From Gracilaria vermiculophylla (taxonomy: Eukaryota; Rhodophyta; Florideophyceae; Gracilariales; Gracilariaceae): a DNA stretch of 64,000 bases. The DNA is taken from assembly GCA_019155205.2 (NCBI GenBank), contig JAHNZQ020000004.1, positions 4,467,402-4,531,401 of the forward strand, in the 5' to 3' direction. Shown here piece by piece: positions 26,964 through 37,696 of this stretch. The notes beneath the pieces are model-generated. The model was not told where the DNA came from. It was given only the letters and a program-made list of their open reading frames with translations, and ran no database searches. Position 1 is the stretch's first letter; each line of letters starts with the position of its first letter. A program made the position numbers and the translations under genes.

Positions 26964-29138
26964 TCAAGAACTATGTTTCTCTTTTAGTTCTTTGATTAGC
27001 GTCATAATGGCCGTTTCATCTGTCGCTTCTTTGGCTTCCGGAATGATGTCGTTTTCTATCACGAATTTTTTTCTGAGTTGTTGTGGCACGATAACGCCCA
27101 TTTGCGTTTTGATCTTGCTCTGTTGAAGAAGAGTCTCATCGTAGAGCTTTTGAAGGAGCTCACGTCTTTCTTTGAGCTTAAGTTCAAGTTCTGGTTCAAG
27201 ACGAGCTCTTGCGCTCGGATGTTCGACAGCAGTGGAGCCTTCTTGACCCGATGACAAATCTCTCGACTTCAGCACTTCCAATAGCTTGTCTTGTAAATCA
27301 AAAGCCAGGGAGCCGTCATGTGCAATCTCCTCGTTAACGAGGTCTATTCCTCTATTGATGCCTTTTTGAGTTACGCGGTCTCGGTCGGTAATGTACTGCA
27401 ATCGATCTAGCATGCTCACAGTAACGAGCCCTCCATTCTCTTTCTCCTCTAACAATAAACGATAAAATTCTTTATCTCGATCGACAAGGAAGCCCAATTC
27501 ATTTGCAAATTCGTCATCCATAGCAACTGCGTCAGGTATGGGTAAACTCTTACGCGCTGCTGACGATAAAAGTCTCGCTCTTTCGGATACCAGGAGTGAA
27601 TTATTACCCATCTGACGCTGCCGTGCCTCGTCTTCCACATCAATTTCTTCACTTTCAAGTTCTAGAGAAACATCTGTACTTTCATCAAGCGATTTAGATT
27701 CATTTGCCAAGTCGATTTCATACTCATTTTCTGGCTCTGGAAGATTTCTAAATCCTCGTTTGATTATCTCCGACAAAATGGATTTCCTGTCTGAATTGGC
27801 AACAGAGCTTGTGCTTAAGCCGTGTACTGAGCCAGGAGTCAACAGCGGTGTTGCCAAAGGATTCGGAGTTCTCAAGTCGGATGGAGCTGGAGTAACACGT
27901 CCTCCGAGCCCGAGCTCCTGAACATCAGGATTTGATCCTCCTCGCAGGGGAGTTCCCGCTGATTCCAAATTAATAAGCGTTTGAACTTGTTTGCTTCGGG
28001 TTACAGCCCATGGTTCAGGGGCAAACTGACCAGGGGTTGATTCGGGCCGCATTACATTAAACTTGTCACCAGTTGCTTGTTTACCACTCATAAGCGGGGG
28101 TTTAGCGGATCCTTTCATCTTTGTTGTATTTGACTTTGACAGCCGTCCGTTGCGAGACTTGGATAGTTTTACAAGCTCCAGGTCAGATAACTGAGGGGAA
28201 GGAAGCGATAATTTTGCTTTCTTTAAAGGAGGGCTGCGTGGTGCTCGCACTCTGTCAAGGCCTAGTGCAGCTGGCAAATTCGTTTTCTCAAGCTCCCTTC
28301 GCTTTGCCCGATCTCGCTTTTGGGCTTCTTCTTCTTTTTCTGCAACTGTTTTGCCTTTGAACTTTTGAAGGAGCTTGCCTACTTGTTGTTTTCGATCTCC
28401 CCTACTTTCTAATACGGAATCTTCTTCAGTAGTGTCAAAGAATCCCGCAACTGGTTTCCTTTCAAAAGGAATCTCCGTTCCGTAGTCGGTGACATTCTTT
28501 TTCTTTCGAAACAACTTTACGTCAATGCCGGCAGCTTTCAACTCTCTTCGCTTCTGCAACACGGCCAGCCTTTTGGCGACTTCAAGTTGCTTTTCCCTGG
28601 CTTTTCGTTTCGCTTTCTTTCCTTTCGTGTTTGCCAATCTTGCTCGGGCTTCGCTAAGCATTTCCAACTCGTCTTCATCCATATCCACAGGATCAGGTCT
28701 TGCAGGTTTACTTTCCGGAGCTGCGCCCGAATCACCTACTTTTCCTCGAGAGGCCATGGCTGTTGCTGATCCAAGCGAAGCATTACCGGGCTTGGAACCA
28801 TCTGTCACAGAGCCCTGCTGAGCTTGGTCAATTAATTCCTCATAATGTTCTATGCATTGAGCTGCTGTCCTGCCAATCATGGGAGCAATAGTGCGCCACG
28901 ATGTAGGCATGACCTTGACGAGATGAAGCAGTTTTTCTTCTTCTTCTCTGGTCCATGGAGTTTTCTTGATAGCTGGATCTAGCCACTCGTACCAACGTGC
29001 TTTGCACTGCGTAGCTGACTTTCTTCCGAGCAGAGAAGCTATTCGAGCCCATTGGTTCATTCCGTATTTCATTACGGCCGCCTTAAGAATTTCATCTTCC
29101 GAGTTCTTCCAAACTCCTCCCCTGAACTGAATCCTCAT
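26964..29138 (-). CDS. CDC5L: CDC5/Cef1-like splicing factor (Prp19-complex Myb protein)
   Basis: 724 aa. CDC5/Cef1 is a core component of the Prp19 (NTC) complex that acts in spliceosome activation. ATG 29138 starts MRIQFRGGVW, the family's hallmark beginning; a 68-codon upstream extension in frame is not used. Two Myb repeats follow (residues about 8-105), with evenly spaced Trp residues (GGVWKNSED, QWARIAS, RWYEWLDP, TPWTREEE, WRTIAPMIGR, CIEHYEEL). Then come the conserved RPDPVDMDEDELEMLSEARARLANTKGKKAKRK region (about 145-180) and a long charged tail ending in coiled coil. Although this genome is intron-poor, the factor is complete, in line with the introns visible in the RPC11 and PEMT-like genes. 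Confidence 0.96.
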   Translation of the reverse strand: MRIQFRGGVWKNSEDEILKAAVMKYGMNQWARIASLLGRKSATQCKARWYEWLDPAIKKTPWTREEEEKLLHLVKVMPTSWRTIAPMIGRTAAQCIEHYEELIDQAQQGSVTDGSKPGNASLGSATAMASRGKVGDSGAAPESKPARPDPVDMDEDELEMLSEARARLANTKGKKAKRKAREKQLEVAKRLAVLQKRRELKAAGIDVKLFRKKKNVTDYGTEIPFERKPVAGFFDTTEEDSVLESRGDRKQQVGKLLQKFKGKTVAEKEEEAQKRDRAKRRELEKTNLPAALGLDRVRAPRSPPLKKAKLSLPSPQLSDLELVKLSKSRNGRLSKSNTTKMKGSAKPPLMSGKQATGDKFNVMRPESTPGQFAPEPWAVTRSKQVQTLINLESAGTPLRGGSNPDVQELGLGGRVTPAPSDLRTPNPLATPLLTPGSVHGLSTSSVANSDRKSILSEIIKRGFRNLPEPENEYEIDLANESKSLDESTDVSLELESEEIDVEDEARQRQMGNNSLLVSERARLLSSAARKSLPIPDAVAMDDEFANELGFLVDRDKEFYRLLLEEKENGGLVTVSMLDRLQYITDRDRVTQKGINRGIDLVNEEIAHDGSLAFDLQDKLLEVLKSRDLSSGQEGSTAVEHPSARARLEPELELKLKERRELLQKLYDETLLQQSKIKTQMGVIVPQQLRKKFVIENDIIPEAKEATDETAIMTLIKELKEKHSS

Positions 29139-29778: not shown

Positions 29779-30579
29779 ATGTCTGAGGTTACGAATGCAG
29801 GGACAGCGGAGGCCCCAATTGGCATCGAGATTGATGTTGGAAACCTAACCGCTTTTGACAAGCGTATCTACGATGGAGCTGATGTTCAAAAAGCAACAGA
29901 AGCCGTTCAATCCCTAGTTACAGCCATATTTTCGTTACCTGCTGAGAGTACGGAGGACGGAAAACTAGTCAAGCTTCCAACTCCGTCTTTTGCACTGCCT
30001 CGGGAAAAACCAGTACCAAAAGAGAGACCGCTCACGAAATGGGAACAGTTTGCAAAAGAGAAAGGGATTCAAAAGAAGAAGCGAGACAGACTGGTGCTCG
30101 ACGAAGCTACGGGTGAGTATGTACCGCGTTATGGTCGCGGGAGCAAAAATTCTCTACAGAAAGACGTTATTATTCCGCACAAAGAGGGTATGGGTGATGA
30201 CTATGATCCATTCAGCGAGAAGAGGAAGGAAAAGAAGTTGAGAGTCACGGAAAACAAGAAAAAGCAGGCCGCTAATATCCGCCAGGCTCGGAAATCGCGC
30301 GGGTCTCAAATAAGCCCCATACAAGCGTTGGATGTGGCGAGCACTGGTCCAAGCGGGAAAAAGTTTCTACCGAAAAAGGGTCTCAAAGACGCATTGGCTG
30401 TTGTGCAGAAGTCGACAGCTTCTGCCGGAAAATTTGACAAAAAGGTATCTAAAGAACCAAAACAAAAATCACGGGGAGTAAAGCGAAAGTATGAGAATGT
30501 AGTTTCAAAGAGCGGGATAACGCGGGAGAAGGAAAGATCGCACAAGATAGCTGAGAGAATACTATTACAAAAGCGTTAG
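29779..30579 (+). CDS. RRS1: Ribosome biogenesis regulatory protein RRS1
   Basis: 266 aa. RRS1 works with RPF2 to bring the 5S RNP into the pre-60S ribosome in the nucleolus. Family blocks are present in order: an IEIDVGNLTAFD opening, LPTPSFALPREKPVPKERPLTKWEQFAKEKGI (about 66-98, the most conserved part), KKRDRLVLDEATGEYVPRYGRGS, and the acidic-aromatic GMGDDYDPFSEKR. The C-terminal half is Lys-rich with repeated basic clusters, typical of nucleolar assembly factors. The start ATG is preceded by GGC and gives the expected acidic N-terminus. Single exon, no anomalies. Confidence 0.95.
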   Translation: MSEVTNAGTAEAPIGIEIDVGNLTAFDKRIYDGADVQKATEAVQSLVTAIFSLPAESTEDGKLVKLPTPSFALPREKPVPKERPLTKWEQFAKEKGIQKKKRDRLVLDEATGEYVPRYGRGSKNSLQKDVIIPHKEGMGDDYDPFSEKRKEKKLRVTENKKKQAANIRQARKSRGSQISPIQALDVASTGPSGKKFLPKKGLKDALAVVQKSTASAGKFDKKVSKEPKQKSRGVKRKYENVVSKSGITREKERSHKIAERILLQKR

Positions 30580-30667: not shown

Positions 30668-33600
30668 TTACTCTGGCAAAGCTTCCAAAATAGGAACTAA
30701 CTCCCTGAACGAAGGCCTTTGACTGGGGTCACTATCCCAGCAATTCCGCATAAGCTTTGCTAAAGAAGGTGGACATTCGCGCGGAATGGTAGGGCGAAGT
30801 CCTTGATTAAGAACAGCCATTCCAACTTGCATAGGTTGCATTCCAAAGTACGGCAGTTTTCTCGCAACTATTTCCCAAAGGAGTATACCGAACGAAAAAA
30901 CATCGGCCTTCTCTGAATAAGGTTTGTTCGCGAGTACTTCCACAGCCATGTATTGAAATGTTCCGCACTGGCCAGTCATTTGTACGGCCGCCGATCCCTT
31001 TGAAATGCGCGTTAAGCCGAAGTCGCCGACCTTGCAGTTGTAATCCTTATCAAGCAGTAAATTCGATGACTTCAGATCTCTGTGTAGCAGTTTGCTGTCA
31101 TGCAGATATCGCATTCCCTTGCAGGTATCAAGAGCAAACTTTTTGCGCATTGGCCATGTTACACGCTCGTTCGACTGATGCAGAACATCGAACAATGTGC
31201 CCCTCTCCATAAACTCGGTGATGATCATCAAGTTGGGTGGTCGAGTACAGGCTCCAACGAACCCGATTATATTGGGGTGACGTAATGTGCAAAGAACAGC
31301 CACTTCAGATTGAAACTCTACTATCGAAGCAGAATTCATTAAAGCGTGAGCGTGGATCTTTTTGACAGCAACCGTCTCTCCACGAAACTTGGCTTTGAAA
31401 ACCACTCCGAACCCACCTGACCCAATCTGCTGTGCAAATTGCACTTCGTACGGGGCAACTTCGAACTTCAGATTCATACTTGGCGTCTTCTTTCCACTCG
31501 CAGCTGCCGCTAAGGCTTCCTTGCTCCCCCCCTCATACTCTTCATCATTCCCTTGCGGTTTTGCCCAAGTCTTTCGTTTCGGAGGCTTTTTATCGAAAGG
31601 AATAGCTTTTTCATTGGCGTGTTTCTTGCGCCCAACTCTCTTTTCTTTTGCCGATGGGTCTGCACTCGTGTCCTCAATATTTTCGTCTTTGCTTTTCCTT
31701 TTCGCCTTTCCCTTCTTTTTTCCTTTAGGTTTTCGACGGGGTTCTTCGTCTTCTGACCCAGATTCACTGTCGTTTTTTCTCTTCTTATTGGACTTCTTTT
31801 TCGCTCTTCCTTTCCGATCTTGCTTCCTGTTCGTAATTTGCTTCACATACGTGCCTTCCCCACCAGAACCTTGGACATCTGACGAGGCATCTGATGATTC
31901 AGACAAACTGTCACTACCATCTTGTTCACTGTCATCCTCGCTTCCAGAAAGTGCGCTACGTCGTAAAGGAGAACGAGACCTCGATCGGGATCGGATCTGA
32001 CGTCCATCAACCGCTTTGTATTTGTCATGAGGCATCTTGTAGCCATTTTGGACCGGTTCTTGGCCGTCACTTGGCAGTCCTTTGCGTACACTAATAGACA
32101 GCTTTCGAAGGCTGCTTATGTCCGGTGAACTCTTTCTGATGGGTTGCAAGGCATTTTGGGGTTGGCTGTTGGGCAATTGTTCAATATCATCGAGCGGAAC
32201 GACTGGGGGTTGACGAAATGCTTTTCTCGTATTAGGCACCTTCTTTCGTTGAGTCACTTCCGTGGGTGGCGATATCTCTCGGCGTTTATCTTTCGCTTCC
32301 TCCGGCGTCGTCAATGGCGATTTTGTCTCACTGTCCTCCGGAAGCCCCGTCTCGGATTCCGCCAGAACTTCTTCATCTTGTGAGTTTTCGACTCGCTTGC
32401 TCTTTGACAAGTTCACAGCAGCAGCTGAAGATTTCTTCTTCTTCTTCTTTCGCTTCAATTTCTTCAAGAGTGACACCAGCGCTTCGGGGTCGAGCTGATC
32501 AGGCACGGTTTCCTCTAATGTAAGCAGAAATTCAGGCGCGCATTGTGCTGCAACATCCGGGGCAGAATGAACGATATTGTTGGCGTTTCTAGCTGCAGTG
32601 TGAGCTACCCCCAGCTCGCACTCTAAAAGCGTCTTCATATTCATAGGAGCCGTCGCGAATAGCCAGCAAAGTGCATAGTATGTCTTACATATTTCTTGAA
32701 TGAGGAGCGGAATAGCAAACTGTTTGATGTTCGCGGCAGGGTCTTTGGACGTAGCCACTTTCCGAACGAGTGCGCCACATCTTTCAAGTATATCAAGAAT
32801 CGAGCGGAAGGCATCGCGTCTGTTCGCCTGGAGAGTGGGTAAACCATTTCCACGAGCCAACCAATGCGTACTGAACACCTTCGCGAAAGTTCCATGAACG
32901 AAAGCACGGCATCGAAGCATTGCTGCATACCAGGATATTTCCCCTGCAGCAAAGCAGTACGTGTACGCATGAACCCTTCCCCCATGATTGGAAATACGAG
33001 TTCTAGACCAGGATGTCTCAATCCATTTGAGAAAATCCAGTTTTTGCAAAGCAGAAGACGTCAATGTCGCAGGACCTTCCGCCAGCAATCGATGAATTAG
33101 AGTCGCGACTTTAAAGGCGACAACTGGGTTTCCTTTGGAACTCGAGATGTGCAGCTGACCCAATGCTTCAAAGATCCGATCAGGTAGTTGTTGCATCGGC
33201 AGGCAGGCTTCCAAAAGGCGGTTCACTTCGTTGTTACCTTCAGGAACAAGAGTAGGGGTAGCTATTCTTCTAACCGCTTCATTGACACCCGCTAAGCTAT
33301 GGAGATCGGAAAAGCCATTGTCGCGTTCAGCTTCAACAGTATTCGATGCGGAATGCGAAGCTGTAACCGATGGTGGTGATGTGTTGGCTTCAATCGGTAA
33401 TGTGGACTGGTTGTCGGTGACCACTGAACTCGGGGGCAGGCCACGGCTTGAATCTATATCAAGTTCGAGATTCTCTTGCGGTCTGGTATTTACTATTGGC
33501 TTCAGCGGTGGTGTACATGACGGAACAAGCTTTCGCGCAGCCGCAAGGTCATATCGATATACAAGCAAATCGGGAACCTTAGCCATTGGAACAAAAAGAA

Positions 33601-34249
33601 CGGAGCGAAGGAGATCTTTAGTAAGACCAGTGATTTGCGGGGCGTCAGGAATGGCTGGATTCGCTGAATCAAAGCGTTTTCCGTAGCACAGTTCGTACAG
33701 GAGAGCAGTGAGAGCGCGAATATCATTTCTCTCCGAAAGGTTTCTTTTTGTGCTGGCAACTCTTTTGGCCCTCGTTAGACCAAAGCCTCCAAGCTTCAGA
33801 GACCCGGTGGAATCAAATAAAATGTGATCCAACGATAAGCTTGCGTGCGCGCGTTGTTCTGCACTGTCAATAACAAACTGTAGCGCCGAAGCCACCGCAG
33901 CGATGGCACGCAAAGCGGAGCGTTCAGCTCGTGGAGCAGTTAGAATGCTACCTGCACAGTACTCCATGATGAAGAAGGCGGTGTCGGTGTTGAAGTAGAC
34001 GTCGTGCAACTTAAGAACTGCTGGACATTGGGAAGCTTTTTTCCAGGTTTCTGCTTCTCGCGTCAGTAGGAGACGGGTTTTTTCTCCCGAAACCGGCAAG
34101 AGCTTCAATGCGTAAATAGCTCCATCGGCAGCACGAACAAGCCGAACAGACGGGGACAAAGGTCGGAGCGTCGTGAGGTTCCACACCGTACCGCTCGCGG
34201 ATGTGAAATTAAAAGAAGCCAGTCCCGGCGAAGATGCGTGCTGCGTCAT
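30668..34249 (-). CDS. Two-kinase protein: degenerate NAK-like kinase, ANTH-like helices, and C-terminal Raf-type (TKL) kinase
   Basis: 1193 aa from ATG 34249; a 63-codon in-frame extension lacks support. (1) Residues about 20-250 resemble a protein kinase of the NAK/AAK1 group (YALKLL lysine kept; DIRALTALLYELCYGKRF near its end), but the HRD loop reads HASLSLDHILF without Asp and DFG reads GGFG, so it is probably a pseudokinase. (2) About 345-580 is helical and opens FKVATLIHRLLAEGP, like the ANTH domain of clathrin adaptors. (3) About 585-900 is highly charged and disordered. (4) About 915-1190 is an intact kinase: GSGGFGVVF, VAVKK, HRDLKSSNLLL, VGDFGLTR, SFGILLWEI. It is closest to plant Raf-like MAPKKK/TKL kinases. 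I know no standard family with this order; a gene-fusion artefact is unlikely as the whole is one open frame. Confidence 0.9.
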   Translation of the reverse strand: MTQHASSPGLASFNFTSASGTVWNLTTLRPLSPSVRLVRAADGAIYALKLLPVSGEKTRLLLTREAETWKKASQCPAVLKLHDVYFNTDTAFFIMEYCAGSILTAPRAERSALRAIAAVASALQFVIDSAEQRAHASLSLDHILFDSTGSLKLGGFGLTRAKRVASTKRNLSERNDIRALTALLYELCYGKRFDSANPAIPDAPQITGLTKDLLRSVLFVPMAKVPDLLVYRYDLAAARKLVPSCTPPLKPIVNTRPQENLELDIDSSRGLPPSSVVTDNQSTLPIEANTSPPSVTASHSASNTVEAERDNGFSDLHSLAGVNEAVRRIATPTLVPEGNNEVNRLLEACLPMQQLPDRIFEALGQLHISSSKGNPVVAFKVATLIHRLLAEGPATLTSSALQKLDFLKWIETSWSRTRISNHGGRVHAYTYCFAAGEISWYAAMLRCRAFVHGTFAKVFSTHWLARGNGLPTLQANRRDAFRSILDILERCGALVRKVATSKDPAANIKQFAIPLLIQEICKTYYALCWLFATAPMNMKTLLECELGVAHTAARNANNIVHSAPDVAAQCAPEFLLTLEETVPDQLDPEALVSLLKKLKRKKKKKKSSAAAVNLSKSKRVENSQDEEVLAESETGLPEDSETKSPLTTPEEAKDKRREISPPTEVTQRKKVPNTRKAFRQPPVVPLDDIEQLPNSQPQNALQPIRKSSPDISSLRKLSISVRKGLPSDGQEPVQNGYKMPHDKYKAVDGRQIRSRSRSRSPLRRSALSGSEDDSEQDGSDSLSESSDASSDVQGSGGEGTYVKQITNRKQDRKGRAKKKSNKKRKNDSESGSEDEEPRRKPKGKKKGKAKRKSKDENIEDTSADPSAKEKRVGRKKHANEKAIPFDKKPPKRKTWAKPQGNDEEYEGGSKEALAAAASGKKTPSMNLKFEVAPYEVQFAQQIGSGGFGVVFKAKFRGETVAVKKIHAHALMNSASIVEFQSEVAVLCTLRHPNIIGFVGACTRPPNLMIITEFMERGTLFDVLHQSNERVTWPMRKKFALDTCKGMRYLHDSKLLHRDLKSSNLLLDKDYNCKVGDFGLTRISKGSAAVQMTGQCGTFQYMAVEVLANKPYSEKADVFSFGILLWEIVARKLPYFGMQPMQVGMAVLNQGLRPTIPRECPPSLAKLMRNCWDSDPSQRPSFRELVPILEALPE

Positions 34250-36127: not shown

Positions 36128-37696
36128 ATGTTCCGCTCGTCTCTTCTATTACTTTTGAATGTCTTTGCTTTTTTCATTATCGTCTCGGCGGAGCCTTTTG
36201 TCTGGATTGGAGCGGTCACCGATACCTCATTCAAAATCCATATAGAAGTTCCCAACATCAACGACGCACAAATTCTAATCACCGAGAATGACAATCCGTC
36301 AACCACTGTTTCTTCCACGCCATCTAACAATTCAACTTTAAATATTGAAGAATTTGAGCTCTCCAGCCTTCGACAGTACATCTTTAATAATCTCGTTCCT
36401 TTAACAAAGTATCACGTAGCAATCCGTACACCATTTTCCACAACTTTCATAGCATCTGTAACAACGTACCCGTCTCAAGATTCCACACGAGACATCCAGC
36501 TTGCCTTCTCGTCATGTCAGAGAGACCATTCAGACGACGAAGCTTTTAAACACATACATGCACATTTTGCACGTGCGCAAGGTTCCCCTCAACCTCCGGT
36601 TTTCTTAATGATTCACATGGGCGACCTGCACTACGCGGACATCGCCAAAAACGACGTTTCCCTCTTCGGAAAGCGCTTCCGGCGAGTTGTCTCGGAACGC
36701 AACGTGCATCGCGTTATGCGCTCAATGCCAATGGCATACATGTACGACGACCATGACTACGGCAGAAATAATGCTGGCTTTTCTTCGCCATCACGCGAGG
36801 CTGCTTTGCAAGCATATCGACGCTATGTCCCCTCGTACGACTTGCCGTCGGAAAATGCTTCGTACCACGCCTTCTCCGTAGGTCGCGTACGAGTGGTCAT
36901 GACAGATTTAAGAGCAATGGCACGGAAAGAAGCAAGTTCTACCCTTGCTGCAGAACAGAAGAAATGGCTTTTTTCTGAATTCGCCGCTGCTGCCAACTTC
37001 AGTGTACTGGTGTGGATGTCCTCCAAGCCATGGATAGCGAGATCTCGCGCAAATGATGACTCTTGGGGTGGCTTTGCAGCAGAAAGGCGAGCCATTGCCA
37101 ACCAACTCGTGCGTCTTAACGTGACCAACCTTGTCATGATTGCTGGTGACGCTCACATGTTGGCGGCGGACGATGGCTCCAACAGTGATTACTCGAGCGA
37201 CGGCGGTGCTGGCTTTCCCGTGCTTCAAGCTGCCCCCTTGGCTCATTTCGGAACATCGAAAGGGGGTCCATTCTCTGAGGGATGTTTTGCGTACAGATTT
37301 ACTCGCAATCGACAATATGGGCTTTTAAGGCTTTCAAAGCTAGGGGAGCAGGGGGGGCCTTGCGTCCAGTTTGAAGGCTATAGAAGTGGTGAAACGGATC
37401 CTAAGATAGTTTTTGAGAGATGTGGAAGATTGAGTGGCGTCAATGGTACGGGAGGCAGTGAAAAAAGTTGTCGCCTGCCACTCTTTCCTGCTTGGGTCAT
37501 CGCTCTGATTAGTGTAGGAGCTACGTTGTTCTTTTGCATTTGTACAGCCGCCGTTGTTTTTATTCTGCGGAGGAAAATGCAGAAAAACAGAAGAGTTCAA
37601 GAAACTGTGAAAGAAACAAGCGAGAATGAAAGTCGCAAGGACGGTAAAATGAGTGACAAGGAAGCAAGTGATGGCAAGACGATAAAAGAGAAGTAA
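36128..37696 (+). CDS. PhoD-like phosphatase/phosphodiesterase, secreted and membrane-anchored
   Basis: 522 aa. PhoD enzymes hydrolyse phosphate mono- and diesters with a Fe/Ca metal centre. ATG 36128 opens a signal peptide (LLLLNVFAFFIIVSA). An N-terminal Fn3-like domain comes first, then the catalytic metallophosphatase part with the metal-ligand blocks MGDLHYADI (about 162), MYDDHDYGRNNAG (about 205), VVMTDLRAM, and MIAGDAHML (about 338). A transmembrane helix near 455-480 (LPLFPAWVIALISVGATLFFCICTAAVVFIL) would leave a charged cytosolic tail. Extracellular phosphate scavenging at the cell surface is the likely role. Several Asn-X-Ser/Thr sites fit an extracellular domain. Confidence 0.9.
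   Translation: MFRSSLLLLLNVFAFFIIVSAEPFVWIGAVTDTSFKIHIEVPNINDAQILITENDNPSTTVSSTPSNNSTLNIEEFELSSLRQYIFNNLVPLTKYHVAIRTPFSTTFIASVTTYPSQDSTRDIQLAFSSCQRDHSDDEAFKHIHAHFARAQGSPQPPVFLMIHMGDLHYADIAKNDVSLFGKRFRRVVSERNVHRVMRSMPMAYMYDDHDYGRNNAGFSSPSREAALQAYRRYVPSYDLPSENASYHAFSVGRVRVVMTDLRAMARKEASSTLAAEQKKWLFSEFAAAANFSVLVWMSSKPWIARSRANDDSWGGFAAERRAIANQLVRLNVTNLVMIAGDAHMLAADDGSNSDYSSDGGAGFPVLQAAPLAHFGTSKGGPFSEGCFAYRFTRNRQYGLLRLSKLGEQGGPCVQFEGYRSGETDPKIVFERCGRLSGVNGTGGSEKSCRLPLFPAWVIALISVGATLFFCICTAAVVFILRRKMQKNRRVQETVKETSENESRKDGKMSDKEASDGKTIKEK

Follow-up and report, generated by a model that had tools for sequence, protein, structure and literature searches.

Proteins of the NAK kinase family (GAK, AAK1 and BIKE) and proteins carrying an ANTH domain both act in clathrin traffic, the latter including AP180/CALM and Sla2/HIP1R, and Arabidopsis CTR1, a Raf-like TKL kinase, is not known to carry a pseudokinase or an ANTH domain. 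NAK kinases are tied to endocytosis in the accessible part of one study (PMC4780864), and the accessible part of another describes a cargo-uptake phenotype for AAK1L1 of Trypanosoma brucei, a putative pseudokinase related to NAK kinases and the nearest precedent found for a NAK pseudokinase (PMC10952953). The gene described here lies on contig JAHNZQ020000004.1 of the red alga Gracilaria vermiculophylla, within a window of 64,000 nucleotides, the whole stretch that was analysed. Almost certainly, its product is one protein in which a dead kinase is followed by a fold of the clathrin-adaptor type and then by a Raf-like kinase that is complete. Each of these domains is known, but the combination appears to be new: no paper describing the order pseudokinase, ANTH, Raf-like kinase was found in the open-access literature, subscription papers lying mostly outside the scope of the search.

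The coding sequence is a single uninterrupted frame on the minus strand, which opens with an ATG at 34249, encodes 1193 residues and closes with a stop ending at 30668; the first plus-strand frame across the same interval is full of stops. A sequence-only reading of the window had announced one clean frame here with this domain order, for which it knew no described family; its coordinates and length were exact, the strand is minus, and its interpretation finds partial support. Three protein searches, each scoring the roughly 8000 candidates that share most words, returned 15 relatives (P0002-P0016), from which two further proteins, P0017 and P0018, were left out for all counts as generic kinases matching over 16% of the query with no ANTH domain listed. 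With 15 relatives recovered, a chance frame is excluded. The domain order is the same in 14 of them (1100-1242 residues), such that the fusion is not absent from close relatives, and ten are co-linear with the window protein over essentially the whole length. Four (P0009, P0012, P0013 and P0015) start within the N-terminal kinase, and the predicted start region of the window protein is also matched in P0003 and P0005. Over the N-terminal 640 residues, identity is 77% to the relative from Agarophyton chilense and 74% to that from Gracilaria domingensis; the architecture they share with the others suggests that these are red-algal as well. The remaining relative, P0016 (620 residues, with Pfam kinase and ANTH matches), ends within the ANTH domain. 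It was considered as a natural form lacking the Raf-like kinase and set aside, as the similarity of its tail is lost within ANTH, probably through a frameshift.

The protein searches yielded no other lineage with this domain order, although the last of them missed P0006, P0011, P0012 and P0014, which had been found earlier, so that absence elsewhere counts for little. A tblastn search in phages matched 17 records, and the five listed cover the C-terminal kinase only. The alga's own genome (44.8 Mb, 27 contigs searched) contains one full-length match to the protein, and the other 39 rows among the matches listed (39 of 121 candidates scored) correspond to the C-terminal kinase part alone.

The N-terminal kinase domain is recognised by PF00069 in all ten members of its alignment and, as had been proposed, combines a retained ATP-binding lysine with the loss of both catalytic aspartates. 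Lys49 is conserved in each of the 12 sequences that cover the position, the other four of 16 not reaching it. The HRD aspartate is replaced throughout (by Asn in 15 sequences and Ser in one), the DFG aspartate is Gly in all 16, His stands in for the magnesium-binding Asn in 15, and no usual glycine-rich loop is visible. The activation segment is also curtailed: 21-24 residues separate GFG from the alpha-F Asp in 15 of the 16 sequences (P0015 has 41 low-complexity residues here), whereas the C-terminal kinase has 41 and the genome's own NAK kinase 52. The predicted model places only two helices in this region of the pseudokinase (158-165 and 173-189). Judged from these residues, canonical phosphotransfer by this domain would be very unlikely. 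No close pseudokinase paralogue was seen in a single-sequence search of the genome, where the best non-self match was one open reading frame (ORF) with an E-value of 0.0016, by its look presumably a tousled-like kinase.

The affinity of this pseudokinase to NAK, also claimed earlier, is suggested by the fold ranking and not by the whole-domain sequence profile. In a Foldseek search with the model of the N-terminal kinase, ranks 1-18 are all NAK. In a further structural comparison, VIA is tied within 1 Z, and AAK1/BIKE reach 23-25% identity over the fold (ranks 1-6) versus 17-21% for the non-NAK rows among the 50 shown. A profile restricted to the C-lobe puts GAK sequences at ranks 1-3 and STK16 fifth of nine, though at E-values of 0.36 or worse, and the C-lobe ends in DLAAAR, which resembles EIAAAR of GAK. 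A SCYL-like origin was also considered, on account of the KLGG motif. The whole-domain profile places NEK2 first, and in a panel of ORFs from the same genome, mostly fetched as kinase matches, the genome's own NAK kinase is sixth of 14 non-self rows. That kinase (L019:1363-3045, contig C14) is an ordinary GAK-like protein with GAK as its best PDB match (5.6e-47), its HRD reading IRD and its DFGSA kept. The window pseudokinase differs from GAK, AAK1 and BIKE in lacking the catalytic HRD and DFG aspartates expected of the family, in its fusion to an ANTH domain and a second kinase, and in its shorter activation segment, which leaves no room for the hallmark activation segment C-terminal helix (ASCH) of NAK kinases. 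Trypanosoma brucei AAK1L1 is similar in being NAK-related with replaced HRD and DFG aspartates, but the accessible part of the article has it retaining APE and, at the C terminus, a DPF motif, and its main text contains no word beginning with "ANTH" (PMC10952953).

Downstream of the pseudokinase is the helical region that had been likened to an ANTH domain, an assignment that both profile and fold bear out. The Pfam ANTH model (PF07651) matches residues 372-529 at 3.4e-6 (a score of 26.7 bits, where the curated cut-off is 21.5) and exceeds the cut-off in ten of the 14 proteins scanned, with the other four at 15.9-20.3 bits; the predicted structure has the ANTH superhelical fold. The canonical basic site for phosphatidylinositol 4,5-bisphosphate (PIP2) is largely gone. 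Among the CALM residues that we take to be the PIP2 ligand positions in that protein's numbering (K28, K38, K40 and H41), the equivalent of K28 is basic in 11 of 16 sequences, and those of K38, K40 and H41 are basic in only 1, 0 and 0, respectively. The window domain thus differs from the ANTH proteins of the Sla2/HIP1R and AP180/CALM types in the loss of the PIP2 motif and in its fusion to kinases, and offers an example of an ANTH fold without its best-known lipid site. A search of the genome gave just one further ANTH match (L009:544-2760, contig C12), an adaptor-like protein that is over the cut-off and keeps the PIP2 motif.

The C-terminal domain is a complete kinase of the TKL/Raf-like type, as first described, with a PF07714 match at residues 936-1186 (2.7e-76). 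CTR1 is its best single-kinase match in the PDB, and B-Raf matches at about 3e-45; a 678-residue chain labelled EGFR outscores CTR1. K963, E982, HRD, N1063 and DFG are intact in all 15 sequences, a likeness to CTR1 and other Raf-like TKL kinases, from which the window protein is set apart by its pseudokinase and ANTH domains. Identity at aligned positions between the window protein and the 14 full-length relatives is 80-96% in this kinase, 37-82% in the pseudokinase, 39-79% in ANTH and 14-59% in the long charged linker that joins ANTH to the second kinase, so that the two N-terminal domains are each better conserved than this linker. An unusual kinase pairing also occurs elsewhere in this alga: two of the three TKL matches from its genome that were scanned carry a TIR domain (L002:46-2319, 4.6e-10, and L004:187-2334, 3.4e-12, on contigs C14 and C17, respectively).

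A scaffold domain set between a dead kinase and a complete one suggests gating plus localisation. We favour, at a probability of about 0.5, a conserved, lineage-specific red-algal Raf-like kinase with a new regulatory front end, made of pseudokinase and ANTH, that would localise the C-terminal kinase and gate it. In such a protein, the pseudokinase and the divergent ANTH domain would form a binding module that does not phosphorylate by the usual chemistry, and the C-terminal kinase would be the likely catalytic output. The module may anchor the protein to a protein or membrane platform and gate the C-terminal kinase, with contacts made through the superhelix of the ANTH domain and through the polybasic stretch behind it rather than through the classical PIP2 pocket. 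Kinase activity, gating, localisation, partners, a MAP-kinase target and function as a mitogen-activated protein kinase kinase kinase (MAPKKK) are all putative attributes here. JAK-type tandem proteins offer an analogy, with a complete kinase placed after a pseudokinase in the same polypeptide, but the window protein has a linker-ANTH-linker stretch of roughly 690 residues between its kinases. Several observations weigh against this reading: the model of the two N-terminal domains has a predicted template modelling score of 0.49, which leaves the arrangement of pseudokinase and ANTH undefined; NAK descent is without support, at the sequence level, from the whole-domain profile or the small own-genome panel; and the polybasic stretch and Ser/Arg-rich linker would fit a nuclear protein too.

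In the alternative put forward by the sequence-only reading, the protein belongs to clathrin-mediated endocytosis, with its pseudokinase and ANTH domain bound to coats or cargo and vesicle formation driving a MAPKKK-type output. The NAK-first fold ranking and the ANTH fold agree with this proposal, as does the cargo-uptake phenotype of the T. brucei pseudokinase, so far as the accessible part of that report goes (PMC10952953). The window protein also contains a clathrin-box pattern, LLTLE at residues 575-579. Against this, among 14 proteins scanned the pattern is present in only seven, DPF/DPW in one, and NPF and FxDxF in none, and in the window protein it lies in the ordered C-terminal end of the ANTH domain in the model. 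A similar leucine pattern occurs at the ANTH C-terminal end of AP180-type domains, and LLTLE was not relied on as a clathrin box, though neither was it disproved. The loss of the PIP2 site and the want of any family-wide motif among those scanned speak against its acting simply as an AP180-like adaptor, and a GAK-like kinase and a canonical ANTH protein are encoded separately in the genome. Although its ANTH domain is without the usual site for membrane lipid, the protein may have a role in endocytosis, but the full model is unlikely. Just as unlikely is a variant in which red algae would have wired a trafficking module, made of a NAK-derived dead kinase and a divergent ANTH domain, directly onto the Raf-like kinase, a MAPKKK-type signal being switched by occupancy of a coat or membrane platform; if true, it would define a kinase family that reports vesicle traffic. 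It is, by a little, easier to imagine that the N-terminal domain descends from another Ser/Thr kinase group and that two endocytic families came together here by coincidence, but this too seems somewhat doubtful in light of the uniform NAK ranks, the higher AAK1/BIKE identities and the C-lobe profile, for all its poor E-values.

A nuclear or cytosolic signalling kinase, with the polybasic stretch serving as a nuclear signal and the ANTH domain re-used as a plain protein-binding superhelix, seems quite improbable. It would accommodate the lost PIP2 site, the ten basic residues of 12 at positions 595-606 and the 13 RS/SR dipeptides of the window protein, but the dipeptide count ranges from 7 to 20 across the 15 full-length sequences, and polybasic stretches can also bind acidic membranes. 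The stretch itself could be either an acidic-membrane contact or a nuclear signal. That two genes were fused by assembly or read-through can be virtually dismissed: nothing was found in its favour, and identical order and similar length recur in 14 relatives from several sources (ncbi, eukprot, lgn, ena). One of these, the EukProt entry P0004 (72% identity), is labelled as a complete ORF and carries a Trinity transcript name, both read here as a sign, from RNA, that this relative makes a single message. To our knowledge, red-algal signalling routes are poorly known, and a gene that combines a complete Raf-like kinase with ANTH and a pseudokinase provides a concrete test case of whether covalent fusion can tie a kinase to membrane traffic.

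Table 1. Features of the pseudokinase-ANTH-kinase gene (window coordinates; pLDDT, predicted local distance difference test)
Feature	Position	Strand	Basis
Whole coding frame, 1193 residues plus stop (P0001)	30668..34249	minus	Frame translation; start region matched by P0003, P0005
N-terminal pseudokinase, residues 12-245, NAK/GAK-like by fold	33515..34216	minus	PF00069 2.1e-9; Foldseek ranks 1-18 NAK
Retained beta-3 lysine K49	34103..34105	minus	12/12 sequences covering the position
Degenerate HRD (HAS; HAN or HGN in the other 15)	33839..33847	minus	Alignment
Degenerate DFG (GFG; GWG in 7/16), then truncated activation segment without APE	33779..33787	minus	Alignment
Low-confidence linker 1, residues 246-312	33314..33514	minus	pLDDT <50 at 242-311
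ANTH domain, residues 313-600	32450..33313	minus	Pfam and predicted fold
Residues 328-341, where the canonical ANTH PIP2 site would lie; most basic residues gone	33227..33268	minus	Alignment to CALM and Sla2; column counts
Polybasic stretch KKLKRKKKKKK, residues 596-606, directly after ANTH	32432..32464	minus	Polybasic in 15/15 reaching it
Linker 2, residues 607-900, long, charged, Ser-rich, poorly conserved	31550..32431	minus	14-59% identity (613-900)
LxKLSxSVR-like linker motif, residues 714-724	32078..32110	minus	Recognisable in 14/15 reaching it
EKxIPFxK linker motif, residues 880-887	31589..31612	minus	Present in 14/15 reaching it
Complete CTR1/Raf-like kinase, residues 934-1190	30680..31450	minus	Pfam; CTR1 7.2e-64; catalytic residues 15/15

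Linker 2 is otherwise variable, and EKxIPFxK and the LxKLSxSVR-like sequence are two short motifs kept within it. The flanking genes covered by the scan have ordinary products: a Myb protein that matches the pre-mRNA-splicing Myb_Cef domain, which we take to be CDC5-like (26964-29138, minus), RRS1 (29779-30579, plus) and a PhoD-type phosphatase (36128-37696, plus).
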